Assembly: GCA_031292625.1 (NCBI GenBank) | Contig: JARLGU010000004.1 | Coordinates: forward strand, 1-59,252 | From: Capsulimonadaceae bacterium | GTDB taxonomy: Bacteria > Armatimonadota > Armatimonadia > Armatimonadales > Capsulimonadaceae | DNA length: 59,252 nt | Direction of reading: 5' to 3' | Shown here: positions 839 through 58,911 of the stretch, in pieces | Layout of the letters: the number at the start of each line of letters is the position of its first letter | Numbering within the stretch: position 1 is the stretch's first letter | The notes under the pieces: generated by a model | What the model saw: the letters and a program-made list of their open reading frames with translations, nothing else | Told to the model about the DNA's origin: nothing | Database searches by the model: none | Program-made: the position numbers and the translations under genes

Positions 839-1198
839 TCAATAGCGCCCTGACGACCATGCTCGATAAAGGCTGCGTATATGTACGAAGTCAGCAGGGA
901 GGCCTTCATCATCGAGATCGTGTACTCCGATCCATCGCTTTTTTTCGCCTCGGACGACGTGACACTGCACGATATTCTGGTCGTTAACGCGAAATTTCGT
1001 GACCTTGACATCAATACCCAGCAAGGATGCAGAGAACGGCACTTCGATGCCGTCTTCGAAAGCAACCTCCCACGCGCCTGCTTGCTCGTATTCATCGTAA
1101 GCGTCTACGAGAATCTCTTCAATCTCGCGTCGCTCAACCTCCGTTAGGTCGGATCCCTCCGGCTCCTGATCGCCGCCGTTCTCAATCTTAATAAACAT
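839..1198 (-). CDS. CcbP-like calcium-binding protein
   Basis: This is an acidic protein of 119 residues. The segment from EEILVDAYDEYEQ through WEVAFEDGIEVPF matches the pattern I know from the Calci_bind_CcbP family of small calcium-binding proteins, named for cyanobacterial CcbP. That pattern is a VDAY motif, then an E-D-x-x-x-x-PF segment and a short beta-rich domain. The start is the ATG at 1196-1198, two bases after the stop of the upstream SWIM-type reading frame, which indicates translational coupling. A longer open frame exists to 1462 but its extra N terminus overlaps that frame and looks like a shadow. The role in the element is unknown. The gene appears intact, although its upstream partner is broken. 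Confidence 0.6.
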   Translation of the reverse strand: MFIKIENGGDQEPEGSDLTEVERREIEEILVDAYDEYEQAGAWEVAFEDGIEVPFSASLLGIDVKVTKFRVNDQNIVQCHVVRGEKKRWIGVHDLDDEGLPADFVHIRSLYRAWSSGRY

Positions 1199-1200
1199 GG

Positions 1201-1680
1201 CTACAGCCACTTTTCCTTTTCGAGGAGCTTGATGAAATTGCGTTTGCGCCGGAACTCGGCGTAAAATGTGCCGACAAGCTGCAGGAACTCGTCGCTGCGC
1301 CCGAGAGGCGCCAGTATCTCCTGGCATTTCCGCAGTAGCTCGACCGGGTGTTCGTAGTTCCCGCTGCTCGCATTCTCTAGAAGAGATTGGGCAATGGCAA
1401 GGTAGACCCGCACTGCGTCGTCTGGCTGCGTTGCCGCTCGACGACCAGCAAGCTGAATTCATAAGTCTTGCTCGATTTCATTGCCCTTCGACGCTGAAAT
1501 GGCCTCGTTCCATGCTTCATCGTTGCGGCCTTCGTAAAGAAGGACTTTCACGATCTCGGGAGTTGCCGAATACCAGTAGCGTCTGCCAGACGTTGATTTC
1601 GGATCCTTCTGTCTGTCACGCAGAAACTGCCAGGCCTGTTCCCGCCATTTAGGCCACGTTTGCGTTCGCCGCATAAAATC
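1201..1680 (-). pseudogene. SWIM zinc-finger family protein, C-terminal part, with in-frame stop
   Basis: Two minus-strand reading frames, 1459-1803 and 1201-1413, lie in the same frame and are separated by one TGA at 1459-1461. Read through the stop, the protein runs from a WREQAWQFL segment, through helical repeats (IVKVLLYEGRNDEAWNEAI, then YLAIAQSLLENASSGNYEH), to the end RRKRNFIKLLEKEKWL. The KRNF-x-x-LL ending after tandem helical repeats is typical of the C-terminal region of SWIM zinc-finger proteins. The zinc-finger N terminus is missing. Beyond about 1680 the frame runs into the duplicated PIN-like segment, so the 5' part was lost by rearrangement. A single nonsense change plus truncation makes this a pseudogene. 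Confidence 0.6.
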
Positions 1681-1715
1681 GATTGACTCGTTGTGTAGGT
1701 CGGCAGCGTATCTTT

Positions 1716-1940
1716 CGTGAGGAGCGTATCTAGTTCGGTCGTAGCCAAGGCGAGAACTCTCCACGCTTGATGGTAATTTGCCAGTAGAATACCCGCTCCG
1801 CATGCGATCCTCGCTCCTTCAACGCCATTGCCACGCCAGGCATCGATGTTACGATATGGTCCATTCCGACACATATTGCGCGGTATGAAGACGGTGCCGA
1901 AATGGTATAGTAAATCAGATACACGATGTGGTTCGTGAAG
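1716..1940 (-). pseudogene. fragment of a PIN-like (DUF5615-type) protein, copy 1
   Basis: One minus frame carries LHEPHRVSDL, HFGTVFI and then CGAGILLANYHQ with ATTELDTLLT. The same peptide order occurs at 3148-3390, with differences that preserve the reading frame and many of the residues. This supports ancient coding on the minus strand. The V-F-I-T-H-N-R motif of copy 2, followed by a G-I-L-L segment, resembles DUF5615 PIN-like proteins, which are often toxin-like nucleases. No start or full domain is left here, and the frame continues into the SWIM-type remnant. Family assignment is tentative. Confidence 0.4.
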
Positions 1941-1948
1941 GTGCAGCT

Positions 1949-2182
1949 ATGACTCGAACATTACAGAACCTGGGCGACAACAAGGGGCTCGTCCTGACCC
2001 CAAACATGCTGGATCACCTTGGCGTTTCCGATGAAGTCGAGGTTGTTCTGGAGGATGGGAAGATCGTCATTACAGCGCCGAATCCCAAGTCGACGGGCCG
2101 AGGCAGGAGCTTCGACGACGCAATGGCCTCCACGTTTGAGCGATACGGCCAGACAATGCGCGATCTCGCCGACGCTGGCTGA
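1949..2182 (+). CDS. AbrB/MazE-type antitoxin of a Doc toxin
   Basis: This 77-residue protein begins MTRTLQNLGDNKGLVLT and continues LGVSDEVEVVLEDGKIVIT, the swapped-hairpin AbrB/SpoVT DNA-binding fold of antitoxins. The acidic, helical tail (residues about 55-77) would wrap the toxin. The ATG at 1949 is preferred over the upstream GTG at 1928 because GAAGG at 1937-1941 sits 7 bases ahead of it. The toxin gene begins 34 bases downstream on the same strand. Such antitoxins normally bind their own promoter. The first codons and upstream region resemble a stretch at about 3370-3410, part of the local duplication. Confidence 0.75.
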   Translation: MTRTLQNLGDNKGLVLTPNMLDHLGVSDEVEVVLEDGKIVITAPNPKSTGRGRSFDDAMASTFERYGQTMRDLADAG

Positions 2183-2216
2183 TTCAAGCGATTTATCGAA
2201 GGGATGTCGGAGCTTG

Positions 2217-2630
2217 ATGACGACCAACAAACCGCAGTCTGTCGCATTTCTCACCGTTGACCATGTCATTGCTCTTCATACTGAGGCGATTAGGCGAGTC
2301 ACTCCGACCGAGGCTCTGACAATCACTGATCGCGGGAGGCTGGAAGCTGCGGTTATGCAGCCCCAGCAAACGTTCGATGGCGACTACCTGTACAGATCGA
2401 TAATCGAAATGGCGGCCGCGTATCTGATCGGGCTTGCCGGCAACCATCCCTTTGAGAACGGCAACAAGCGCGTCGCCTTCGCCGCATGCTCGGTATTCCT
2501 CGAGATGAATGGCCTTTGTCTTACGCTTTCCGAGGATCAGGCGACCACAATGACGCTCCGCGTGGTGCGCCATGATCTTGACCGCGACCAGACTGTCTTG
2601 CTTCTGCGCGATTTTACCAAACCTCTCTGA
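2217..2630 (+). CDS. doc: Doc (death-on-curing) family toxin
   Basis: This 137-residue protein carries the Fic/Doc signature HPFENGNKR at residues 77-85, where the His acts in catalysis and N-x-N-K-R binds the nucleotide phosphate. Canonical Doc phosphorylates and inactivates elongation factor EF-Tu. The length and the preceding helix (YRSIIEMAAAYLIGLAGN) fit the short Doc type rather than long Fic AMPylases. The start is ATG 2217, with GGAG at 2209-2212. A longer frame upstream overlaps the antitoxin and is not used. The gene follows its AbrB-type antitoxin, as in type II toxin-antitoxin modules. It is apparently intact. Confidence 0.85.
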   Translation: MTTNKPQSVAFLTVDHVIALHTEAIRRVTPTEALTITDRGRLEAAVMQPQQTFDGDYLYRSIIEMAAAYLIGLAGNHPFENGNKRVAFAACSVFLEMNGLCLTLSEDQATTMTLRVVRHDLDRDQTVLLLRDFTKPL

Positions 2631-2703
2631 TCGGTCGAACGGGCTGTTTGCCGCCGGTGGCCTAAGTATTCATTTGGCGTACACTAAGTGTCCGTGTCGA
2701 TAT

Positions 2704-2761
2704 AACCTTTACACTTTTCGAGACCTGTCGAGATCGTGGCTACTGCCAAAATGTAAAGGTT
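2704..2761. repeat. inverted repeat with arms AACCTTTACA / TGTAAAGGTT
   Basis: AACCTTTACA at 2704-2713 is matched exactly by TGTAAAGGTT at 2752-2761. The match extends a few T/A bases further inward if one bulged base is allowed. The loop is 38 bases, with no T-run after it. It lies downstream of doc and could be a recombination or regulatory site. Confidence 0.6.
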
Positions 2762-2857
2762 GTTCGGTGACGAGCCCTAACTTCACGACATTGAAACTCA
2801 AAATTCTCCAAGCGCTATAAGATTTTCGGGACTGTTTATCAGATCATAATGGTAAAA

Positions 2858-2948
2858 CATAGCCTGAAATTCCAAATTAGTCGACCTCATATGCCAAAAT
2901 ATAGCATTGAAAATCGACGATCAGATTAGTATAGCCTCAAAAAAGTCG
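2858..2948. repeat. three direct repeats of an ATAGCxTxAAA motif near the right attachment site
   Basis: CATAGCCTGAAAT begins at 2858, TATAGCATTGAAAAT at 2900 and TATAGCCTCAAAAAAGTCG at 2930. They recur at 30-42 base intervals and end 17 bases before the tRNA copy. Position and spacing resemble arm-type binding sites of a tyrosine integrase (inference). Confidence 0.45.
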
Positions 2949-2965
2949 TATTCATAACGGCCTAG

Positions 2966-3010
2966 CTCTTAATCAGCGGGCCGAAGGTTCGAGTCCCCCA
3001 CGACCCACCA
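2966..3010 (+). repeat. decayed tRNA-Lys 3' half (attR-like)
   Basis: From CTCTTAATCAG through the CCA end this repeats the 3' half of the tRNA at 450-494. The T stem no longer pairs (GAAGG against CCCCC) and no 5' half is present, so it is not a functional tRNA. It forms the right boundary of the integrated segment. Confidence 0.8.
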
Positions 3011-3018
3011 CCGGTAGG

Positions 3019-3070
3019 AAAGTGCCTTTCTACTCTGTTTAAATGAGTAGGAAGGCGCTCTTTGCTTTTT
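3019..3070 (+). terminator. second copy of the tRNA-Lys terminator hairpin
   Basis: AGTGCCTTTCTACTC at 3021-3035 pairs with GAGTAGGAAGGCGCT at 3045-3059, followed by a T-rich tail. It was carried along with the tRNA repeat. The reduced loop (9 bases) and compensating stem bases show it still folds. Confidence 0.7.
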
Positions 3071-3147
3071 GTTGTCACTTGTTGACAACTCGCCGCTTTC
3101 TCTGTAATGTGGGGGGCAGCAGGTGTCGGACACTGGTTAACCCCACT

Positions 3148-3450
3148 CGTAAGGAGCGCATCCAGTTCGGTCGTAGCCAAGGTGAGAACTCTCCTTGGTT
3201 GATGGTAATTCGGCAGTAGAATACCCGCTCCGCATGCGTCGGCCGCATGGCAAATTCGCTTTCTCGACAAGGGTCCGCTGGCGTTCGATACATCGATGCA
3301 GCGAGCTTCCAGTGCGTCCCTATTGTGCGTTATGAAGACGATGCCGAAATGGCGTGGTAGATCGGATACGCGATGCGGTTCGTGAAGGCACTGCTCTGAC
3401 TCGAACACGGCAAAATCCAGCAGGTCGGGGTTGTATCCGTGATCCTCCAA
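3148..3450 (-). pseudogene. PIN-like (DUF5615-type) protein, copy 2, 3' end replaced
   Basis: The minus frame starts MEDHGYNPDLLDFAVFE, contains FGIVFITHNRDALEARC, then CGAGILLPNYHQ and TTELDALLTSG. The T-H-N-R-D segment followed by a G-I-L-L strand resembles PIN-like DUF5615 proteins, whose members are toxin-like RNases. Expected N-terminal residues (an early D-E-N motif) are not visible. After about 3148 the open frame continues over the terminator and tRNA copy to 2962, so its native 3' end has been replaced. Residues 21-101 parallel copy 1 at 1716-1940. I regard it as a remnant; a live short gene cannot be excluded. Confidence 0.4.
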
Positions 3451-3487
3451 GATTCAGCCTGCAGCATTGTTGGTTGCCGGTTTTTCA

Positions 3488-4378
3488 TCACAACCGAGTC
3501 TCGCCCGACGTCCGGTATGCTCGAGGGCTCATGCCGCAACACGTTTTGAATTGACGACTGAAATGGAACGCATCAGCGTAGCCGGACCGTTCCCCGATCT
3601 CTTGAACGGAAAGGCTTGTTGTAACCAATAGGCGCCTCGCCTGGTGTATCCGCAGAGATTGCAGGTACCTGCCCGGGGATGTTGACATTGTCGCATCGAA
3701 CAGAGCATGAAGCCTTCGCGGCGACAGACAGAATCTGTTCGCAAGTTCCTCGATTGTTACGGTTGTCAGGTGTTCGCCAATATACTCCAGAATTGGCCGC
3801 ATTCGCCCTGCGCCGGATACCAGCGCGCCAAACGCTGGCGATGCCGGAACACTGTCTGCGATGACAGCCGCAAGCGCAATGCCAATCGATCGTATGGCGA
3901 GTGCCTGTCCCAATCCGCGCGGCCGCTTGGCCGTGATCCGCAGTTCCTCGCTCAGGAGGCCGACGCGTCTTGCGGCGCTGCAAGGAAGAATACAGGGCGT
4001 TTCAAACAAAGACAGAAGCGCCACGGTCCCCCAAATCCGAAATAGCCCCGTCGTCCACGTGCTGACGCCAGGCGTCGTTCGCAAGCTAAGCGTCTCGTGG
4101 GTAACGTATGCCGGGATGCAAAGCCCTTCGCCGCGTTGACAAATAATGCGCCGGCCGTCCGCAAGCGCTAACTCGATCGGTCCACGATGCTCGCACGTCA
4201 ATATGTCGATGGGCAACGTCCGCCATCCTGATCGGTACCCCGGCTCGATCGATCGCTTCATGCACGCCTCAAAATCGAATGAGAGACCGTCTGCCAGTGT
4301 CTCCCACAAAGGCGATGAGCGAGGATGTTGAATTGGCTCAACGTCCAGATCCGACATGTTTACGTCTACATTTGGCAT
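3488..4378 (-). CDS. AraC-family transcriptional regulator
   Basis: This 296-residue protein has a cupin-like N-terminal sensing domain (about 1-150, with HRGPIELALADGRR and HETLSLR strands). Its C-terminal AraC DNA-binding domain (about 190-290) has two helix-turn-helix units: IEELANRFCLSPRRLHALF and VQEIGERSGYADAFHFSRQF. The ending G-M-S-P-R-A-Y-R is typical. It is divergent from the glycoside hydrolase at 4479, with only about 100 bases between the starts, so it probably senses a sugar and controls that gene from the shared promoter region. The start ATG at 4376-4378 gives the usual family length. Confidence 0.9.
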   Translation of the reverse strand: MPNVDVNMSDLDVEPIQHPRSSPLWETLADGLSFDFEACMKRSIEPGYRSGWRTLPIDILTCEHRGPIELALADGRRIICQRGEGLCIPAYVTHETLSLRTTPGVSTWTTGLFRIWGTVALLSLFETPCILPCSAARRVGLLSEELRITAKRPRGLGQALAIRSIGIALAAVIADSVPASPAFGALVSGAGRMRPILEYIGEHLTTVTIEELANRFCLSPRRLHALFDATMSTSPGRYLQSLRIHQARRLLVTTSLSVQEIGERSGYADAFHFSRQFKTCCGMSPRAYRTSGETRL

Positions 4379-4397
4379 GGTCGCAATCTACGGCAAA

Positions 4398-4406
4398 TGT
4401 TATAAT
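4398..4406 (+). promoter_or_regulatory. extended -10 promoter of the glycoside hydrolase gene
   Basis: TGTTATAAT (TGnTATAAT) lies in the AraC-hydrolase divergent gap. No good -35 box is visible, as expected for an extended -10 promoter that relies on an activator such as the neighbouring AraC protein. Confidence 0.5.
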
Positions 4407-4478
4407 CCTTTACCAGAATACCGCACGTAGATAAGATTATGCGCTGGGCACGACTTGTTCGCGAGCAGGCTCGCCGCA

Positions 4479-6635
4479 ATGCCTGGAAATCAAACGCCTA
4501 ATCTGACAGATTTAGCTACTTCCCAACCGAGTACAGATATGGACGATAAAAATCTTCACAATATCCTGTTTTCTGAACCGAAGGAAATTGCGACTTGCTG
4601 CGGCACGCCGATCCTCGCCTATGGATACACCTGGGTCGTCGGCGCTCCCCCACAACTCGCACCAGATCAGCCGATGCAAGCCGGCAACAAGAATCGCGTA
4701 ACGAAGCTTCGGCTCAAGACCAGTTCCGAGATCAAATCCAACCGGCTTGGCGTTAACGCAACCCGCCTGCCGCATTCACCGGCAGTCGATTATCTGCCCC
4801 TCGAAGCGATCCACCTGATCGACGGCGATAAGACGACCTGCTGGTGCAGCCACTCCGCCCCCAACTCGACGGTTGATGAGCCGTGGATCCGGATCGACTT
4901 GCCGACGGAAACAAGCGTTAGCCGCATCGTCCTTCGCAAGCGCATTCCAGGGACGGTCCGCAATGTCTTAGGATCAATTCGTCTGGATAAAGGCGCAGTC
5001 GAGATCGGGACGGCAATGCCAGAGCGTCTCGAAGTATCCATGAGCCGCGACGCCGAGAACTGGATTACAATCTTCTCCGGAGCAGTCGAAGGGTTCGATC
5101 AAAAGAGCGATTTTGAATTCGATGCGATGAGAACGACCGCCAAGCAAATCCTGATTACAGGGCGCAATCTGGCCCGTGTCGAAAACTGGCTGTTCGGATT
5201 CTCGATCGCATCCGTCGAGGTCTACGATGCTAAAGGCGAGAATGTTGCGCTCGCGACGCATGGAACGGGTGTCTCGGTCAGCTCGACCCAGCACTGCTTT
5301 GGACAGACGATTGAGGCGCACCGGCAACTCTGGCCGATGACTGCGGACCTAGGCGTGAAAAGCGTCCGTGTGGGCTACCACGACGACCCGATCAACTGGC
5401 ATTGGGTTGAGAGAGAACGTGGAAAGCTCGTAATCGATTACAAAGCGGACGCGGCGATCACATGGCTTGCCGAGAACGGAATTGGCGTCGTAATGGCCCT
5501 TGGGTTCGGCAATCGGCTCTACACACAGGCAGATCCAGTTCGGCACTTGCCGCAGCTTTGGGAGTGGTACTATGAAAATCCAGCGCCGCCGACCACCCCG
5601 GACGCTCTGGAGGCTTGGGCACGGTATGTTCGCTTTATGGCTCGCAATTTCCGCGACCGCGTTCGTTGCTTCGAGGTATGGAACGAGTGGAACAGCGATA
5701 TCTATTGGGGCGGACCGCCGTCAATCGATGCGTATCTTGCCGTAGCCAAAATTGCAATTCCGATCATCCACGAAGAAGCGCCGGGAACCCCTGTATCGCT
5801 CGGCGGCGCTGCTTGCTTCCCCTGGGGGATGTCAAAATGGACAACGGATGATCTACGCGAAACTGAAGCGGATTCGGCAACGCCCGTGGGCATGTTCTTG
5901 GCCGCCATCCGCGAACTGGGCAAGGAAGTGGACGCTATTCAGTGGCATCCGGCGTACCAACCGCATCCCAGCAAGCTAACAGGATACTCCGCCGATGTGC
6001 GTGCGCTGATGAATTATTGCCGCGATCACTTATTCAGAGGCGAGTTTATTGCATCGGAATGGACCTTTGGAGCAAGCTATCCGCCTCCTACTCCTCCAAA
6101 CTGGTGGGGAAATTTCGTTTGCAGCGAGATTCAAAAGGCGAAGTATGTTGCCCAAATGACCGTGAGGCACGCCAGCCTTGGCGTGACGTCCATCTTCTGC
6201 GAACAATGGCACGACACATATCCGCTCGATCTGAGCCTGATGCGGCGCACCGTCTTCTCCGATCCGCAGTCGCGCCAGCAGCCGCAGGCGGCGTACTATG
6301 TCATGCGAAACCTCGCCACCGCGCTCGACTCGACCGAGCCTGGCGATTTCGCTTACGAGATCGCCTCCACCGCGAGCGCGATAGAACACTACGGACTTTG
6401 CCGCGAGGGCGAGCGCGCGATAGCGGTCTGGCAGCCGGGACTGGCAAGCGATTACTGTGATGGAGTCGAAGCCGATGTCTCCGTCGCGGGCGAATGGGAT
6501 GCCGTGGCGTTCGACTGCCTCAATGGCTCTATGTGCCCGCTGATCGTAAGATGGACTGGGAACCGTACGACCATTTCGGGTCTTTTCGTCAAAGACTATC
6601 CTCTGCTCGTCCAACTGACTCCGAAGCCTATTTAA
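4479..6635 (+). CDS. glycoside hydrolase, clan GH-A fold, with N-terminal discoidin-like domain
   Basis: About 718 residues from ATG 4479; a TTG at 4455 and an ATG at 4539 are alternatives. The N-terminal third contains a discoidin (F5/8 type C)-like sugar-binding domain, seen as LIDGDKTTCW followed by PWIRIDLP and later VEVYDAKG. The central part is a beta/alpha barrel. FEVWNEWN provides the acid/base Glu (about residue 403) and FIASEWTFG the nucleophile (about residue 527), the two strands expected of a retaining clan-A enzyme. No signal peptide is seen, which is odd for a polysaccharide-degrading enzyme and suggests cytosolic oligosaccharide cleavage. The C terminus ends in a small beta domain. 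GH39- or GH5-like relatives seem nearest; the substrate is unknown. The AraC regulator is divergent. Confidence 0.75.
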   Translation: MPGNQTPNLTDLATSQPSTDMDDKNLHNILFSEPKEIATCCGTPILAYGYTWVVGAPPQLAPDQPMQAGNKNRVTKLRLKTSSEIKSNRLGVNATRLPHSPAVDYLPLEAIHLIDGDKTTCWCSHSAPNSTVDEPWIRIDLPTETSVSRIVLRKRIPGTVRNVLGSIRLDKGAVEIGTAMPERLEVSMSRDAENWITIFSGAVEGFDQKSDFEFDAMRTTAKQILITGRNLARVENWLFGFSIASVEVYDAKGENVALATHGTGVSVSSTQHCFGQTIEAHRQLWPMTADLGVKSVRVGYHDDPINWHWVERERGKLVIDYKADAAITWLAENGIGVVMALGFGNRLYTQADPVRHLPQLWEWYYENPAPPTTPDALEAWARYVRFMARNFRDRVRCFEVWNEWNSDIYWGGPPSIDAYLAVAKIAIPIIHEEAPGTPVSLGGAACFPWGMSKWTTDDLRETEADSATPVGMFLAAIRELGKEVDAIQWHPAYQPHPSKLTGYSADVRALMNYCRDHLFRGEFIASEWTFGASYPPPTPPNWWGNFVCSEIQKAKYVAQMTVRHASLGVTSIFCEQWHDTYPLDLSLMRRTVFSDPQSRQQPQAAYYVMRNLATALDSTEPGDFAYEIASTASAIEHYGLCREGERAIAVWQPGLASDYCDGVEADVSVAGEWDAVAFDCLNGSMCPLIVRWTGNRTTISGLFVKDYPLLVQLTPKPI

Positions 6636-9266
<2,631 letters not shown>

Positions 9267-48518: not shown

Positions 48519-48653
48519 GAAGCAAACAAACACGGAATTAGGCGCAAACCATCTTCTTGCCCTCTCGAAAACCGCTCGTTGTTCCATCATTTAACTCGTG
48601 AATCGTCACGTATTTCACGCTTGAGTGTGGGCGTACACACAATCTGTGGAAAA

Positions 48654-51600
48654 ATGCAGGCAATGCTGCGAGTTTCGACGTATCCTTGGTCCCGGAGAAC
48701 GCCTACCGCTCTGGCCGCGATCGCGCTTATAACGCCTCACGCGCTTATCGCGGCTCCCGCGCCTGCGTCAAGCGCGCGAGCGTCGGCGCTCGCCGCCGCC
48801 GCGTTCGCCTCGGACCAGGGTCGACGATACGTTTCGCAAGGCAAGCTTAACGAAGCGGTCGGCTGGTACGAAGAGGCTCTGTCCGGCTATCAGCGCGCCG
48901 GCGAAATCGGCAAGCAAGCCGTCGTCCTCACCTGTCTCGCGAATATCCACGAGCGAACGAAGCGCTACGACATGGCGCTCGACGACAATCAGCGCTCCCT
49001 CGCACTCGATAAAGCCTCCAAGGACAACCGCTCGATCGGCGTCGATGAATACAATATCGGCCAGGATCTTGAGCGGCTGAACATAACGAGCGAGGCAGTT
49101 GCCGCGTACCTACAGTCCGCTCAGGCATTCCACGACGCGAAAGATCCGGTATCCGAAATCGCGCACCTGGATCAGGCGGCCGCCTATTGCGAAACAACAA
49201 ACGTTCTGCCGCAAGCGCTTGAAATACGGCAGCACGCGCTTAGCGTCGCGCAAATTTCCGGACGTCAAAACGCGCAACTCGAACAGCACTCGAAGATCGG
49301 CGCTCTTTACGAGGCGATGAAGCTTCCAGATAAAGCCCTCGAGTCGCGCAAGCAGGCGCTCGATATCGCGCGCGCAACCGACAACGTTCCCGCCGTCGCA
49401 ACACAGTTGGCCGCGATCGGACAGCTTTTCGAGAGCAAGGGCGACCACATGCATGCCCTAGAATGCCATCAGCAAGCGCTCGGATTGAACCTGCTCGTAA
49501 AGAACCACGCACCCGAGGCATCGGAGCTCGGAAAAATCGCCGAAACGTACGACCGCTTGGGCGAGACGGAGAAGGCGCTGCTGTACCACCAGAGCGCTTA
49601 CGAAGCCTACAACCAGCAAGGTAATTTCTCCGGCGCGTTGTCCGAAATCAATGCAGTCACCCGATCCCAGCTTGCGCTTGGCCGGTTTGAGCAGGCTTCC
49701 GAGTCCGCCAATGCATCCATCGCCATCGCGCGCAAGACAAATCGCCCGCCAGCGCTTGCCGATCAACTCCTGCAGCTTGGCACCGCGTACGCGCGCCTGG
49801 GCCGGATTGCCCAGGCATCGGACAGCTACTCCGAGGCGCTCGGTCTTGTTTCGCAGCACGGTGAACGCGACCGCCAGAGAGTCCTCCTCGCGCGTCTAGC
49901 TGACCTATCTCTCAAAGCGGGGAACCTGCAAACGGCTCTCGCGCGCCGAAATCAGATCCTTGCGCTGGACATCGAAGCCCGCGACCGTACGGCTCAGGCA
50001 GCCGACTACGCAGCGATCGGGGCCGCGCACGCGTCGACGGGCAAGTGGTCGAAAGCCACCGATGCCTACTCCCTGGCGCTCACCGTCCACCGTCAGCTCG
50101 GGCAAACCCTTTCAGTGCGCGCGGACCTGCACGCTCTGGCGTTGATCTGCTTCCGCGGCCATGCCAACACGCGCGCGATCGATTACCATCGACAAGCCCT
50201 TGCGATCGATCAGCAAACCAGGCGAGTGGTCGAAGCCATCGAAGACTACTCAGGGCTCGCTGACTGCTATGCCGACGTCGGCCAGCTGCCGGCGGCGCTT
50301 GAGGCGCAGCGTCACGTGATTGCGCTTGATCGTCGTCTGCCCACTGCGGCGAACGCCGGCCGCCATTTGCTGGATTTGGCCCTCATTCAACACGATCTCA
50401 GCCTCAAAGCGGAAGCGCTCGCCAGCTTCCAGGACGCCGCGACAAACCTGCCGGGATCGTCGAATGCCCGTCTTCGCAGACTCGCCCTGACCGAATCCGG
50501 CCGGCTTTACGAATCCATGGGGCAATATGCCCAAGCGCTCGACGCTGGCGAACAAGCTTTGGCAATCGCCCGGCAGACCAATCAACGGGCGATCGTTCAG
50601 GATTGCCTTGCCGACGAAAGCCGTTATCTTGTGCGGCTAGACAAGTTGGACAAGGCAAAAGCATCGATTGACGAGCTTCTAACCAGCGCAAAGGCTGGCG
50701 GCAACCGCGCGGCCCTTGCCAGCGCCTACGAAAATCAGGGTCTCCTTGCGGAAGCCTCCCGCAACCTGGATGATGCCTGCGAGTGGAACGCGCGAGCAGT
50801 TCGTCTGCGCCGCCAGATCGGAGACTGGGTCGGCTTCGCCCGCGCAAGCCGTCAACAAATCGCCCTGTTTGCGTCCTGGGATAGGCCGCAGCTTGCTATC
50901 GCATATGGCAAGCACGCGCTTAACCAGCTCCAGTCGATTCTTTGGTCGAGTCGCGCCCGCTCGATCCAAGAATCTTCGCAGATCGAACTGGAAGTAGCAC
51001 AAGGCTACCGGACTCTTGCATCCCTCCTGATCGACCAGCACCGGCTTGCCGAAGCGACCCAGGTGATCGGTATCCTGAAGCGTCAGGAGCTTGCCGGTTT
51101 CGCGGGACAGCATCGTTGGGCAAGCGGTTCGAGCGTTCCGATCGCGTCCCTAACCATGGTGGAGCAATCGACCCTGGCGCGGCTTACCGATGCCGAGGGA
51201 CGCTACTGCGCGCTCGCGGAATCACCGGACACGGCGCAGCTTGCCGGAGAAATCGGTGATACGTTTACGTCGGCGCGCCGCCGTTACCACGCATCGCTCA
51301 TGGTTGCGGGCGCGGATTTACCCGACGGAATCCTCGCCGGCGAGCCAAGCCGCGCAACATATGCGTCGCCGCCCGTTCCGTTAAGCTCCGCCGCAAGTCT
51401 CCCGCCCCCACCCGGCGTCGCGATCGTCCGCATGGTGGTCAGCGCGGACGGTTGCCGCTTCCTGGTTACGACCGACCAGGGAATTCAAGCAGAGACGAGC
51501 TCTATAGGAGCCGGCGAGTTACGGCAGATGGCCGCCCATTGGCGAGATCAATTGACCAACCCGGACGTCGATCCCCGCCCGCTTGGCCAGCAGCTCTACA

Positions 51601-52481
51601 ACGTGCTGTTCGCCCCAATTAAAGCAGACATCGCGGCGGCGAACGTCCACACTATTTTGTGGTCGCTAGACGACGTCTTGCGCTACATCCCAATGGGCGC
51701 GCTCTATGACGGCAACGCCTACCTGGCGCAAAACTATCAGAACGTGCTTCTAACAGGCAGTTCCGCCAACGACCCAGCGGCTCAGGGGAAACGACGCTCA
51801 TGGTACGTCCTCGGCGTCGGCGCAACGAAAGCGCATGAGTCGATCCCAGCACGCATCAGATCGGCGGACGAACTCCGCGGCATCATCGTTTCCGCTCAGG
51901 GACGCGGCAGCCTGCCTGGCACCGTCTGCCTGGACAACCAGTTCACGCAGCAGAGGTTCCGCTCCGAGTTGTCGACAGGCTATCCGGTCGTCCACGTCGC
52001 CAGCGCGCTAGCGGTCGGCAGCGATGAGCGCGCATCGTTTATTGTCCTCGGCGATGGCGATCTGAGCTTCCTGAACGTGCTTGGCAGCAATTCCGCCGTA
52101 CTGAAGGATGTGGATCTTCTGACCGTCTCAAACAGCCGGTTCGACCTGGCGTTCAACGGCGGCGACGGACATGAGGTGGAAGGATTGGGAGCTTACGCAA
52201 GAGCGCTGGGGGCATCGAGCGTGTTGGCGGGCTTGTGGCCGGCTCCGGAGGCAAGCACCCGGCGCTGGATGAGTACGTTCTATCAGAACAAGACAGCGGC
52301 GACTGACACCACCAAGGCATCCGCCGTCCAAGCCGCGCAGCTCGACATGATCGGCTCCGCGCCAGCCCCTGTCGCCGCATCGACAAACCAAGCGGACCCG
52401 CTGTTCACGGCGCCGGACAGCGCCCCATTCTCGCACCCGTTCTACTGGGCGTCTTTCCAGCTAATGGGCGACTGGCGCTAA
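48654..52481 (+). CDS. TPR-CHAT protein with degenerate catalytic site
   Basis: About 1,275 residues. A signal-like N terminus (ALAAIALITPHALIAAPAPA) is followed by about 18-20 TPR units (35-860), for example VGWYEEALSGYQRAGEIGKQA. A C-terminal CHAT region spans about 950-1275 (ILWSLDDVLRYIPMGALYD, GDLSFLNVLGSN, GLGAYARALGASSVLAGLWPAPEAST). Active CHAT proteases have H-x-A-x-H and S-A-C-x-T motifs. Here the first reads HVASA (1114-1118), with Ala where the catalytic His should be, and the second reads TVSNSR, with Ser1161 in place of Cys. Both residues seem lost, so it is probably a binding rather than cutting protein. ATG 48654 begins the signal-like segment. Confidence 0.85.
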   Translation: MQAMLRVSTYPWSRRTPTALAAIALITPHALIAAPAPASSARASALAAAAFASDQGRRYVSQGKLNEAVGWYEEALSGYQRAGEIGKQAVVLTCLANIHERTKRYDMALDDNQRSLALDKASKDNRSIGVDEYNIGQDLERLNITSEAVAAYLQSAQAFHDAKDPVSEIAHLDQAAAYCETTNVLPQALEIRQHALSVAQISGRQNAQLEQHSKIGALYEAMKLPDKALESRKQALDIARATDNVPAVATQLAAIGQLFESKGDHMHALECHQQALGLNLLVKNHAPEASELGKIAETYDRLGETEKALLYHQSAYEAYNQQGNFSGALSEINAVTRSQLALGRFEQASESANASIAIARKTNRPPALADQLLQLGTAYARLGRIAQASDSYSEALGLVSQHGERDRQRVLLARLADLSLKAGNLQTALARRNQILALDIEARDRTAQAADYAAIGAAHASTGKWSKATDAYSLALTVHRQLGQTLSVRADLHALALICFRGHANTRAIDYHRQALAIDQQTRRVVEAIEDYSGLADCYADVGQLPAALEAQRHVIALDRRLPTAANAGRHLLDLALIQHDLSLKAEALASFQDAATNLPGSSNARLRRLALTESGRLYESMGQYAQALDAGEQALAIARQTNQRAIVQDCLADESRYLVRLDKLDKAKASIDELLTSAKAGGNRAALASAYENQGLLAEASRNLDDACEWNARAVRLRRQIGDWVGFARASRQQIALFASWDRPQLAIAYGKHALNQLQSILWSSRARSIQESSQIELEVAQGYRTLASLLIDQHRLAEATQVIGILKRQELAGFAGQHRWASGSSVPIASLTMVEQSTLARLTDAEGRYCALAESPDTAQLAGEIGDTFTSARRRYHASLMVAGADLPDGILAGEPSRATYASPPVPLSSAASLPPPPGVAIVRMVVSADGCRFLVTTDQGIQAETSSIGAGELRQMAAHWRDQLTNPDVDPRPLGQQLYNVLFAPIKADIAAANVHTILWSLDDVLRYIPMGALYDGNAYLAQNYQNVLLTGSSANDPAAQGKRRSWYVLGVGATKAHESIPARIRSADELRGIIVSAQGRGSLPGTVCLDNQFTQQRFRSELSTGYPVVHVASALAVGSDERASFIVLGDGDLSFLNVLGSNSAVLKDVDLLTVSNSRFDLAFNGGDGHEVEGLGAYARALGASSVLAGLWPAPEASTRRWMSTFYQNKTAATDTTKASAVQAAQLDMIGSAPAPVAASTNQADPLFTAPDSAPFSHPFYWASFQLMGDWR

Positions 52482-55320: not shown

Positions 55321-56173
55321 AAGTTTGTTCTCCCGTGCGGGGCTGCCGCAAACGATTTCGATTGTACCAGCTTTGCACGAACTCGATCAATACGCGCATT
55401 CACATCTGGCTTGCAGCAATGACCAGCAATGGCGTTCGTCTCCGATCCTGGTATAGCGCCGACGGGCGCGGCCATGCGCCGCAAACGGACAGTGTCCGCG
55501 CCGACGCCGCCTTGTCCGGCCCCCCCGGCGAACGTGCTCGCAGACGCCGGCTTCCGCCGCGCCGCGTGCCGATCGACACGCGAATCGAAGCACGCCGCGA
55601 CTGGATCCGGGAGGCGATAGAGCGGATTGCTACGGAAATCGGAATGGAGCGGGGGGTTACGGAGATGGGCGGCTGGAATATCGGGATCTAGGCGAGGAGC
55701 GGTGTCGGTGGAGCGTAGGGAGTACTGGATTTGAATACCTCACAAGATTCACCAGTCACTTTGTGAGCATCTCTACATTGTGCTTGTTTTCGCCTCCAGA
55801 ACCTTAGGTGCTCGCTTCCCGTGACCGTTGCGCCGGGCGGCACGGGGTACTTCTGTGGTACAAGTCTCGCGTTTACTGCAAATGGATAGCCGTGGTTCCG
55901 CCCATCGACGTCCACGCGCCCGAGGCGAGTGCTTCCATTTTGAATCTCGCTTATATATTCCCAAATATATTTACAAAGTAAATGTTTTGATGTAACATAT
56001 ACATGTAAATGTAAACATTCTGTGAGGCAAAATCCATGGGGTTCTAAGAAACTTACGAGAAGGCGTTGCGCCGCCCTCACTGGGGCGGTGCCATAGGATC
56101 CTTTAAAGACGCGGGGAACGAGGATGACCTGCGAAGGTCGGCCGGTAAAATCGAGTCGGCGGTCGCGCACGAC
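55321..56173. other. gene-poor stretch at the start of the right-hand accessory patch
   Basis: I find no gene I can defend. A plus frame ending at 55691 and a minus frame at 55688-56170 are open, but neither shows a known motif; the minus frame, with GRVDVDGRNHGYPFAVNARL, is the better candidate for a real short gene. From about 55955 the sequence turns AT-rich and carries the repeats listed next. Composition changes here from the GC-rich core to the patch. Confidence 0.4.
55981..56019. promoter_or_regulatory. AT-rich inverted and direct repeats, possible operator
   Basis: AATGTTT at 55981-55987 is inverted as AAACATT at 56013-56019. Between them ATGTAAC/ATGTAAA recurs three times, with ACATATACATGT in the centre. 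It lies about 150 bases before the hypothetical gene at 56174, upstream of the XRE-type regulator gene, so it may be its binding site. Confidence 0.4.
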
Positions 56174-56617
56174 ATGAACACGAACTCAGGCGACTGGCGT
56201 ACACCGGTAGTCGAGCAGCTATGTGAGCTTATCGATGGGATGATGGATAGGCCGGAACTATACTTTGGCTTATCGACGCGCGAGAGTATTCGTGAGAGCC
56301 TTGACGGTCTCGAAGCCGCCTGCTTGCCGGTAAAGAATGAGGATTGTTTGAAAAGGTTCCTCGACGCCGCTTATGTTCGCCTCGATAAACTTGTCGAGCT
56401 GGGTTCGGCGGCCCTGACTTCGCATGACGTCGCACGAGAGATCGTTGTGGCGTACATGGAGAATACTGCACGCGACGTTTTCCAATGCGCAGTGGCGGTG
56501 AAAGATCAACACAACCGTGGTGGAGAGCCTGCAGGCGAGATGCTCAACAGAGCCCTCTCATACGTGCATTTTAGCGACCTCGCGGAACAGGTGCGCCGGT
56601 TCAGGCAAGATTCGTAA
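56174..56617 (+). CDS. hypothetical protein upstream of the ImmA-PIN pair
   Basis: A 147-residue, mostly helical, acidic protein (MNTNSGDWRTPVVEQLCELI at the start, MMDRPELYFGLSTRESIRESL next). No catalytic or DNA-binding motif is visible, and I do not recognise a family. ATG 56174 is preferred to a start at 56066 because the extra N terminus is unlike a protein. It points the same way as the next two genes, 62 bases ahead, and may be a third component of that locus. Confidence 0.5.
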   Translation: MNTNSGDWRTPVVEQLCELIDGMMDRPELYFGLSTRESIRESLDGLEAACLPVKNEDCLKRFLDAAYVRLDKLVELGSAALTSHDVAREIVVAYMENTARDVFQCAVAVKDQHNRGGEPAGEMLNRALSYVHFSDLAEQVRRFRQDS

Positions 56618-56679
56618 GCCGCCCTCACAGCGAGTATCCGTGCGCGATCTTCTAAATAGATTTATAAAGGAAAGTTATT

Positions 56680-57909
56680 ATGCCAAAAAGCATTTCGCCG
56701 ATAGAACTTGGAAAGCGAATTGCCGCCGCACGCAAAGAGAGGAACGTGTCTCAAGAGGATGCGGCGAAGCACTTGGGCGTGTCCCGGCCAACGTACATTG
56801 CCATCGAAAGGGGAAGTCGCGCCGCGAAGGCCGAGGAGATCATCTCGTTGGCGGCCTATTTTGGCAAGTCGGTCAACGATTTGGTTTCGCCAAGATCAAC
56901 GATCACGGAATTTGCGCCGCAGTTTCGAGTGACGCAAAGCGCGACGGCAGAACCAATCGTCATTGACGAGGCCGTGGGTGCTTTTAAGCAGGCGTGCAAC
57001 GATTATCTCTGGCTAGAGCATGCTCTCAATGCTCCGATGCCCAAGCGGGTTGACATAGACGAATACCCGATTTCAAACGTTGCCCCAGCAGTAATCGCCG
57101 AGGATATTGCCCAGATGGAACGATCGCGGCTTAACCTGGGAATGGGGCCGATTGCTGACCTCGCCGGCACGTTAGAGGCCGAGGCAGGCATTCGGGTCTT
57201 CGCGCTGCCGGTCGAGGAATTTCGCGTCGCTGGAATGTTCGTTTTCAACGATCAGCTTGGGGGATGCATTATGGTCAACGGCAGTCATCCCGTAACCCGT
57301 CAGGCATGGTCTCTGGCGCACGAGTACGCTCACTATTTGACCAATCGCTATCACAATGAGGTGACCGTGCTCATAGAGTATGAGCGAAAACCCAAGGCGG
57401 AGCAGTTCGCCGATCACTTCGCAGCAAGTTTCCTCATGCCTGCTCCTGGCATTCGAAGACGATTCAATTCGATAGTCCAGAGCAGGAAGGACTTTTCGGT
57501 TGCCGATCTTTGCGTGATGGCTGACCAGTACGCAGTCTCGGTTGAAGCGATGGCACGCCGTCTTGAGCGTCTTGGGTGCTTGCCGCAGGGAACGTGGCAA
57601 ACGTTGGAAGATCGATCAGTTAGCGGCAAGAGGGCGCGCAAGGAGATCGGCCTGGATTCGCGCCCGCCGAGGCGGGTAATCTTGCCAAGGCGATATGTAA
57701 GGTTGGCTGTCCAGGCATTTGATGAGGAACTGATCACCGAAACTCAGCTGGCTCGTTTCCTTCGCTGTAGTCGCGTGGAGGCCCGCGAAATCGCGGATGC
57801 TGCATCGGTCACTGAGGAAATCAATGTTAACGCTGGCGGAACGTACCAGTTGTCGTTGACCTTTGGCGACTCAATCGGTCCCACGAGAGATGATAAGGAG
57901 GCGGCGTAA
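56680..57909 (+). CDS. XRE regulator fused to an ImmA/IrrE metallopeptidase
   Basis: This 409-residue protein has an N-terminal helix-turn-helix (about 8-68, including NVSQEDAAKHLGVSRPTYIAIERG). A zinc peptidase domain of the ImmA/IrrE type (COG2856) follows, with HEYAH at 214-218 and the third ligand Glu241 in AEQFADHFAASFLMP. C-terminal helices (about 330-390) follow. Such fusions act as regulators whose protease part cuts a partner, as in phage-like induction and in IrrE of Deinococcus. AAGGAAAG precedes the ATG. The stop overlaps the ATG of the PIN gene by one base (TAATG), so the two are co-translated as a likely toxin-antitoxin-type pair. Confidence 0.88.
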   Translation: MPKSISPIELGKRIAAARKERNVSQEDAAKHLGVSRPTYIAIERGSRAAKAEEIISLAAYFGKSVNDLVSPRSTITEFAPQFRVTQSATAEPIVIDEAVGAFKQACNDYLWLEHALNAPMPKRVDIDEYPISNVAPAVIAEDIAQMERSRLNLGMGPIADLAGTLEAEAGIRVFALPVEEFRVAGMFVFNDQLGGCIMVNGSHPVTRQAWSLAHEYAHYLTNRYHNEVTVLIEYERKPKAEQFADHFAASFLMPAPGIRRRFNSIVQSRKDFSVADLCVMADQYAVSVEAMARRLERLGCLPQGTWQTLEDRSVSGKRARKEIGLDSRPPRRVILPRRYVRLAVQAFDEELITETQLARFLRCSRVEAREIADAASVTEEINVNAGGTYQLSLTFGDSIGPTRDDKEAA

Positions 57910-58445
57910 TGCAATCGCCGCTTATCTGGGATGCGTGCAGCCTCCTTAACCTTGCTGCGACAAACCGAGAGATCGAGATCCTATCCAGCATGGGACGACA
58001 GTCGTACGTGCCCGAAAAGGTGCTGCGCGATGAAGTTCTTTATCTGCGACCTTTTGAGCAACGCGACAAGGACGAACTCGAGCTGATCGACCCGCAGCCA
58101 CTTGTTGTCGCCGGCGTTCTGACACCGCTCGTGCTGTCTTCTGAGGAGTATGAACTCTACGTCGACTTTGCGAGCCAAGTCGATGACGGGGAAGCCCAAT
58201 GCCTGGCAATCGCGGCAAGCCGGAGTTATTGCCTTGCGAGTGACGACGGAGCAGCGTTACGTGTTGCCCGAGAATGGACACCGGCTATTTCCGTAATTAC
58301 GACGCCGGAATGGCTGCAAACATGGCTCAACTCGACTCCAAATGTCGATTGCCGAGTTGTCGTGCAAATGGTAACCAAACGAGCAAAGTTTCGTCCCCGG
58401 CGCACGAGCGCCTTGCTGTCCTGGTGGCAAAGCTGTCTCGAATAG
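57909..58445 (+). CDS. PIN-domain protein, probable toxin partner
   Basis: This 178-residue protein reads LIWDACSLLNLAATNRE at the N terminus, where Asp8 would be the first metal ligand of a PIN nuclease. It continues with VDDGEAQCLAIAASRSYCLASDDGAALRVA, carrying the later acidic residues. PIN toxins cut RNA. Its start overlaps the stop of the XRE-ImmA/IrrE gene, so expression is coupled. The C-terminal 30 residues are basic (KRAKFRPRRTSALL). The pairing of PIN with a metallopeptidase regulator differs from the usual VapB partner. Confidence 0.75.
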   Translation: MQSPLIWDACSLLNLAATNREIEILSSMGRQSYVPEKVLRDEVLYLRPFEQRDKDELELIDPQPLVVAGVLTPLVLSSEEYELYVDFASQVDDGEAQCLAIAASRSYCLASDDGAALRVAREWTPAISVITTPEWLQTWLNSTPNVDCRVVVQMVTKRAKFRPRRTSALLSWWQSCLE

Positions 58446-58518: not shown

Positions 58519-58911
58519 TTAAAGCCGCCCTCCCCGTGCCGCCGTGCCGCCGCGCGCCGTAATAACACCGGCGAACAGAGCCACTAGGCGTTGGAAGGAT
58601 TGTTGAGCCGCGATTTTGTCGACGTTGGCCCTGCTCGACGCGACATTTGCTTGGGCCGCGCGTACGTTTGCCTCGCAGGATTCGATGTTAGCCAGAGCCG
58701 AGTGGACATCCGCCTGGCTTGATTTGATTCCGATCGCGAACGCCAAAACGTTCGATTCCGCCGACCGGACGGCCTGCTCACGGGCATGGCCGTCGTCTCT
58801 TGCAGCGCTTAGCCCAGCTTGGACCGCTTGGATGTTAGCGCGGCGTGTGTCATAGGCCGTCTGCCGCTCAGCCATTTTTCTGATGTCCATTCCGAGCCCG
58901 TCCATGGGCAC
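58519..58911 (-). pseudogene. fragment of an RND-efflux periplasmic adaptor (HlyD/AcrA family)
   Basis: The minus frame gives an Ala-rich coiled coil (ALANIESCEANVRAAQANVA). It ends SFQRLVALFAGVITARGG, which matches the end of the hairpin and the return strand of membrane-fusion proteins (typically L-Q-S-F-x-x-V-x-A-P-F-x-G-V-V-T-A-R). It stops soon after, and the N-terminal part is missing or unrecognisable. The P expected before the F is L here. About 130 codons remain of a normal 350-400. It lies beside an insertion sequence end, which may have caused the loss. Confidence 0.65.

Follow-up and report, generated by a model that had tools for sequence, protein, structure and literature searches.

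Sequence comparisons suggest that an XRE-M78/PIN locus in an Armatimonadota contig is a decayed copy of a four-gene cassette with a QatC-like enzyme

We analysed a stretch of 59,252 nucleotides from a Capsulimonadaceae bacterium (Armatimonadota; assembly GCA_031292625.1, contig JARLGU010000004.1, forward strand), referred to here as the window. Near its end, a gene for an XRE-family regulator with an ImmA/IrrE-type peptidase domain (XRE-M78) is followed by a gene for a predicted PIN nuclease. An earlier annotation made from the sequence alone (the original prediction) had described these two genes, together with an upstream gene for a 147-residue protein, as a candidate three-gene defence or toxin-antitoxin system. 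Our comparisons indicate that the locus is probably the decayed copy of a four-gene operon comprising a small first gene (gene A), a QatC-like enzyme of the QueC family, the XRE-M78 regulator and a PIN RNase, and that what is left would be an autoregulated toxin-antitoxin pair and a broken gene A. This reading follows from three features of the window: the start of gene A is in place, gene A is cut off by a stop codon, and QatC is missing. Features of the locus are given below; L and G numbers denote loci and genomes in our comparison.

55970 to 55998, plus strand: candidate operon promoter (inferred), with −35 TTTACA, 17 nucleotides and −10 TAACAT, and an overlapping candidate operator TTTACAAAGTAAA at 55970-55982.
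56036 to 56617, plus strand: broken gene A frame, reading M G F stop and then 189 open codons, with an N-terminus homologous to that of gene A in L025.
56045 to 56047, plus strand: in-frame TAA, codon 4 of the gene A frame.
56174 to 56617, plus strand: 147-amino-acid open reading frame (ORF), the 3' part of the gene A frame, starting at an internal ATG, with no evident ribosome site by eye.
56680 to 57909, plus strand: regulator with an XRE helix-turn-helix (HTH) and a Peptidase_M78 (ImmA/IrrE) domain, an RmrA-like predicted antitoxin of 409 amino acids (Pfam, PADLOC).
57319 to 57333, plus strand: HEXXH motif, here HEYAH, regulator residues 214-218.
57909 to 58445, plus strand: PIN nuclease of 178 amino acids, a predicted toxin (fold model and conserved acidic residues).

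Both genes of the pair are present as originally described. The regulator matches Pfam models for the XRE HTH (PF01381, E = 1e-13) and Peptidase_M78 (PF06114, E = 1.2e-17), and its residues 12-309 match the PADLOC RmrA model PDLC03949 (E = 5.1e-29). The two ORFs are co-directional and share one nucleotide at TAATG; the reported junction is therefore confirmed, with the genes overlapping and not fused. The PIN protein has no match in Pfam (E up to 1) or NCBIfam, and its profile has none among PDB sequences (E up to 0.1). Its assignment comes from an AlphaFold2 model built on an alignment of 19 sequences (predicted local distance difference test score, pLDDT, 94.7), the ten best PDB neighbours of which are VapC, Nob1 and other small PIN-type proteins at a probability of 0.99-1.00, with E values no better than 2.2e-3 and thus above 1e-3 throughout. 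Furthermore, the acidic residues D8, E42, E95 and D112 are invariant in all 19 aligned rows, window included. Among PADLOC models, the protein itself finds only the candidate family PDC-S70, weakly (E = 0.015), and nine aligned members likewise match PDC-S70 models only (best E = 1.9e-7). As a separate observation on the regulator, its M78 region (residues 177-375) matches a solved HTH protein of 393 amino acids, PDB 9vzy chain A (E = 4.4e-8), and the entry for this structure may reveal how such regulators work.

Genome contigs were searched with an alignment of three regulators, and 20 loci were found. A PIN gene, recognised by a match to the family profile, directly follows the regulator in 18 of them, and in the remaining two (L025 and L029) the contig ends inside the regulator. 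The gap between the regulator and the longest PIN frame ranges from an overlap up to 96 bases; in the nearest relative, L021 (54% identity), the genes overlap by 1 base as in the window. Two of the loci, L039 and L040, are distant, with PIN profile scores of 37 and 33 bits. In L038 and L040 the regulator is fragmented. Loci with the pair come from records titled as Armatimonadota, Chloroflexota, Acidobacteriota, Gemmatimonadota, KSB1 and a Deltaproteobacterium. By gene order across these loci, the regulator and PIN are a conserved module. Of the three-gene order originally proposed, this part recurs; the 147-amino-acid ORF has just three weak matches in 291 genomes of the phylum.

The distribution of the module is uneven. 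The PIN protein has matches in 11 of the 291 phylum genomes, its own included, and most are weak; among the genomes listed, none of the six from the same family or the twelve from the same order has one. The locus is thus patchy and was probably acquired. A contig scan with the PIN protein alone as query found nothing, and no viral contig was confirmed with the regulator or PIN alignments. One genome, G081, holds two loci (L025 and L004), on two contigs.

In eight of the 20 loci (L022, L025, L026, L027, L029, L030, L033 and L037), a QueC-family QatC-like gene of 433-543 codons lies upstream of the regulator. In all eight it has the same orientation as the regulator and either overlaps the regulator start or ends at most 71 bases away. 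PIN is visible in six of these loci, L025 and L029 being cut. Five of the QatC-like proteins were scanned with PADLOC and match QatC at E values of 1e-31 to 4e-50, and the L027 protein matches the solved QatC structure 9vlk at 1.2e-26. Before QatC stands a small gene A ORF in seven of the eight loci (broken in L033), and the contig end truncates the eighth. Beyond these loci, the QatC-like gene is present on four Rhizobiaceae plasmids (those read, of six found), on a Roseomonas mucosa plasmid and in the Armatimonadota genome G105. The arrangement recurs in records titled with five phyla and on plasmids. With the QatC query that was also run on the genome of the window, 53 of the 291 phylum genomes gave a match, the query's own included; the context was read for G105. 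No QatC match was found in the window or in its genome, the assembly of which is 96.4% complete. In L038 (Armatimonadota, 3245-4983), a short QatC remnant stands beside a regulator split in two frames, and the PIN frame is intact.

Gene A products are very different from one another, but their N-termini are alike. Of 11 gene A N-termini, eight read M[PSAT]D; the Roseomonas protein has V-R-D as annotated, L025 has MGGF and the window frame has MGF, and no MGTS occurs among them. Profile comparisons of gene A groups gave a signal only between the L022/L026 pair and L027/L029/L037 (probability 78.8%, E = 1.7e-5), and every comparison involving the window or L025 stayed below a probability of 6%. 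At E up to 5, gene A of L037 has no match among PDB sequences.

On a tree of 21 regulators, QatC presence needs seven changes, at least five of them forced by well-supported branches. Shuffling the QatC labels on that tree gave a mean of 7.3 changes, with 266 of 500 shuffles as low, meaning that QatC is scattered. This tree leaves out the distant L009, L011 and L039 and labels L021 as QatC-less although its upstream sequence covers only 537 bases; near-copies L015 and L017 were dropped from both regulator trees. The pattern points to repeated loss, or gain, of QatC while the regulator and PIN stay. It agrees with the idea of an addictive pair that resists loss and a sensor half that is readily shed, and the window would be such a loss with a stub of gene A still showing.

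A simpler explanation is that a plain XRE-COG2856/PIN pair works alone, with QatC and gene A as independent defence genes that merely co-assort with it in defence islands. A pair of this kind was predicted as a toxin-antitoxin system by Makarova, Wolf and Koonin in 2009, and the available part of that paper counts, in its Table 2, 60 PIN neighbours for COG2856 and, conversely, 42 COG2856 neighbours for PIN (PMC2701414). Those pairs resemble the window in that XRE is fused to M78 and PIN lies in the same operon. They differ in that the available part of PMC2701414 mentions no QueC/QatC or small first gene, and the PIN protein in the window matches no Pfam model. The explanation also draws on RosmerTA, described in the available part of Ernits et al. 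2023 (PMC10440598) as a system in which an ImmA-domain antitoxin, the NetFlax hub D25, pairs with diverse toxins and is associated with PIN-like domains. The window has an RmrA-type regulator as RosmerTA does, whereas its toxin matches no PADLOC RmrT model, and QatC and gene A precede the pair in some relatives. We consider it unlikely that the plain pair is the whole system, even though QatC was not found in nine of the 18 loci where this can be decided (the upstream sequence being too short in L021, with 537 bases, and L040, with about 1,140). In all eight QatC loci the tight, co-oriented spacing to the regulator counts against it, as does the recurrence of the arrangement in five phyla and on plasmids; moreover, in the seven loci with gene A the promoter site described below precedes gene A, not the regulator.

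The evidence that the window once carried gene A lies directly upstream of the regulator. The frame of the 147-amino-acid ORF runs upstream to the TAA at 56045-56047, with an ATG at 56036 three codons ahead of it and, by eye, GAGG before that ATG. Read from there, the window gives M G F stop E T Y E K A L R R P H W G G, and gene A of L025 begins M G G F E Q S Y E N K L R D P H Y G. Aligning the N-terminal 30 residues with gene A of L025 scored 57, a value reached by none of 5000 shuffles (maximum 35); it is also the best match of the L025 N-terminus in all six frames of the 59-kb window, the runner-up scoring 36. The whole-length alignment scored 62, which none of 2000 shuffles reached (maximum 56). 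A search of the 291 phylum genomes with gene A of L025 was convincing in its own genome only, with five others at E values of 0.04-0.08 and the window genome unmatched. Thus the upstream ORF in the original prediction exists, and looks from these comparisons like a broken remnant of gene A rather than an independent gene.

The frame of the 147-amino-acid ORF has a weak coding score (0.079), compared with 0.121 for the XRE gene, 0.085 for PIN and 0.14-0.30 for 18 other genes of the window; the antisense ORF at 55688-56170 scored −0.167 and one reverse frame with five stops scored 0.060. Together, the 189 open codons and the weak coding score mean that the break is recent, that it is an assembly error, or that an internal start is in use. 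In the last case, gene A would be made from TTG 56066 or ATG 56174 as part of a functional three-gene form that has neither QatC nor a modifiable N-terminus. The long, weakly coding frame past the stop is what this variant would predict. However, by eye there is no clear ribosome site ahead of either start, and the N-terminus that such a protein would lack is the sole part matching L025; we judge the variant to be improbable.

A working three-gene system of the form first put forward, in which the XRE-M78 protease cleaves a 147-amino-acid inhibitor of PIN and so releases the nuclease, is very improbable. The HEXXH motif and its downstream Glu are intact in the window, and the ORF lies just upstream in the same direction, both as that scheme would have them. 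Against it, the ORF is part of a longer frame, one interrupted by a stop close to its beginning, and has no solid relatives. Matches were absent from Pfam, NCBIfam and PADLOC apart from one chance-level NCBIfam match (E = 0.092); no relative was found among 61 relatives, and none in plasmid or viral collections. The three weak matches among the phylum genomes (L018-L020, E = 0.0013-0.007) sit in longer frames of 222-464 amino acids, and a single-sequence AlphaFold2 model was unusable (pLDDT 47.7). In addition, the L025 counterpart of the ORF precedes QatC, and the QatC-less loci L024, L028 and L035 have a different or opposite-strand gene directly upstream of the regulator.

The motif itself was compared across 26 aligned regulators, and the outcome also counts against the cleavage scheme. 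HEXXH is kept in 22, window included, and lost in four (L022, L026, L031 and L036), all of which retain the PIN gene behind them; on a tree of 24 regulators, its state needs two changes. Peptidase activity is thus non-essential to the pairing, and a requirement of HEXXH for the pair is ruled out. Peptidase-dependent release is established for IrrE/DdrO. It is likewise established for ImmA/ImmR, according to the available part of PMC2701414. By analogy with these two systems, the peptidase may act in release where HEXXH is kept.

A recurring site stands upstream of the operon in relatives. Within 220 bases upstream of the first gene, a palindromic TTGACAWTGTCAG with at most two mismatches occurs in 15 of 17 loci checked, and all seven exact plus-strand copies in 121,890 bases lie there. 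The two exceptions are L039 and also L031, the latter having its site at the start of its longest ORF. This count leaves out L030, L038, L040 and the plasmid cassettes, which have no TTGACAWTGTCAG site upstream. In G105, likewise outside the count, the site, with one mismatch, lies 38 bases before gene A, and in L025 the palindrome covers the −35 of a promoter-like TTGACA-17-TACACT; other loci were judged by eye. The corresponding site in the window, TTTACAAAGTAAA, differs from TTTACAAAGTCAG in L021 at two of 13 positions by eye. The promoter-like hit that it overlaps scores 9 of 12, and five such hits occur in 2.9 kb where 1.4 are expected. A second shared string, GTAAAYATTCTGTG, has a single copy in the window (position 56011; 0.02 expected with one mismatch) and occurs in L025 too, which makes the alignment of these two promoters ambiguous. 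The original prediction had pointed to repeat-rich, operator-like DNA here. A palindrome does recur in relatives, but the upstream inverted repeat of the window is within chance (24 of 300 dinucleotide shuffles were as good), so it is ruled out as remarkable alone; the candidate operator takes its support from the relatives.

Separately, CTGACATTGTCAG palindromes were seen at 3308 in L022 and 3305 in L026, inside the 3' part of QatC, and at 5408 in L073 (G105), upstream of gene A. The copies in L022 and L026 are possible second operators.

Several observations weigh against the window being a decayed copy of the cassette. Past residue 30, the window frame and gene A of L025 agree no better than chance (98 of 2000 shuffles as good), and neither has a detectable relation to the gene A proteins of other phyla. 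The in-frame stop is known from one assembly, of the completeness given above, and the 189 codons open after it make an internal start conceivable. With nine of 18 decidable loci lacking QatC, the pair might be the actual unit, with QatC only sometimes next to it. Three of the 20 loci (L021, L036 and L038) had previously been found via the PIN protein (as L003, L006 and L005); without them, PIN follows in 15 of 17 loci and two are cut. None of the PADLOC RmrT models matches the PIN protein or the nine aligned members. The site in the window departs from the TTGACAWTGTCAG consensus at four of 13 positions, and L038, L039, L040 and the plasmid cassettes L014, L015 and L042 have no site within two mismatches. 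We nevertheless favour the decayed cassette as the probable origin of the locus.

For this cassette we infer a mechanism from the families and their order. XRE-M78 would repress the operon from the palindrome at the promoter and would also bind the PIN RNase, keeping it inactive. A trigger such as phage infection or DNA damage would remove the antitoxin, and the freed PIN would cut RNA and halt growth. In a complete operon, the QatC-like enzyme would act on the exposed N-terminus of the gene A product and modify it, as has been proposed for QatC acting on QatB, and the gene A product would serve as a sensor or switch on the XRE-M78/PIN complex. A bolder version of this proposal, which we offer tentatively and hold to be somewhat short of an even chance, is that gene A, QatC, XRE-M78 and PIN constitute a new Qat-like immune system. 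There, QatC would conjugate a nucleobase-derived or other group to the gene A N-terminus, the gene A product would switch the pair on upon infection, and the window would show the sensor half (QatC and the gene A tail) being lost first while the addictive pair stays.

Two further known systems invite comparison. VapBC resembles the window in its PIN-fold toxin, with VapC structures among the best PDB neighbours. VapB is a small RHH/AbrB-type protein, and the window differs in having XRE-M78 as the partner and not a small VapB of the RHH, AbrB or Phd type. In qatABCD, according to the available part of a 2026 report, QatB cannot do without its N-terminal MGTS, and its tail reportedly lies in the active site of QatC (Nat Commun 2026, PMC13279940). 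QatC is a QueC-family protein with extensions at both the N- and the C-terminus. The cassette is similar in that its QatC-like enzyme neighbours a small protein whose short N-terminus is alike. Unlike qatABCD, the window and its genome lack QatC, and XRE-M78 and PIN are found instead; no QatA-type ATPase or QatD TatD nuclease was seen among four Pfam-scanned neighbours in the window (the rest of which was unscanned) or among annotated neighbours of the plasmid cassettes.

No description of the four-gene cassette was found in the open-licence papers searched, the wider sets of hits being judged by title and opening of the abstract among the papers listed. The text of the NetFlax paper (PMC10440598) contains no QueC, and the available main text of a 2026 survey of the QueC family contains no XRE, ImmA, toxin or PIN (PMC13329287). 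The cassette is therefore apparently undescribed. As for the suggestion that the window holds a candidate for an undescribed system, this apparently holds for the cassette, whereas the regulator/PIN pair was predicted in 2009 and the copy in the window is decayed.

The available part of PMC13279940 names the way in which QatB and QatC restrict phage as an open question. A cassette coupling QatC to an RNase effector under XRE-M78 would give a direct readout of QatC action, namely whether PIN is released or not. The available part of the QueC-family survey also places qatA near only 34.3% and qatD near only 33.6% of QatC-cluster genes (PMC13329287), and the cassette offers a concrete neighbourhood for some of the remainder. 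If true, the Qat-like proposal would link protein modification by the QueC family to a toxin-antitoxin effector.

The surroundings of the relatives agree with the earlier placement of the locus among defence or toxin-antitoxin systems with a PIN effector. A Shedu nuclease gene comes after the Roseomonas cassette. Within about 10 kb of the cassette on pAoF64/95 (L042) are genes for DUF1837 and a DEAD/DEAH helicase (925-5203), which we take to be a Hachiman pair, and a Lit-family gene (6694-7557) lies about 3 kb from its QatC-XRE-PIN genes.

In the window itself, a plus-strand gene at 48579-52481, a few kb from the locus, encodes a 1300-amino-acid protein that combines TPR repeats and a CHAT (caspase-like) domain. 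On the minus strand, between the PIN gene and a piece of a transposase, a coiled-coil ORF of 130 amino acids (58522-58911) has only weak other Pfam hits; by eye it resembles a fragment of an HlyD/EmrA-type adaptor, and it is possibly debris. The insertion sequence noted nearby in the original prediction is borne out by this transposase piece, a C-terminal part at the contig end (59142-59252, minus strand) that we assume from its motif to be IS3-like.

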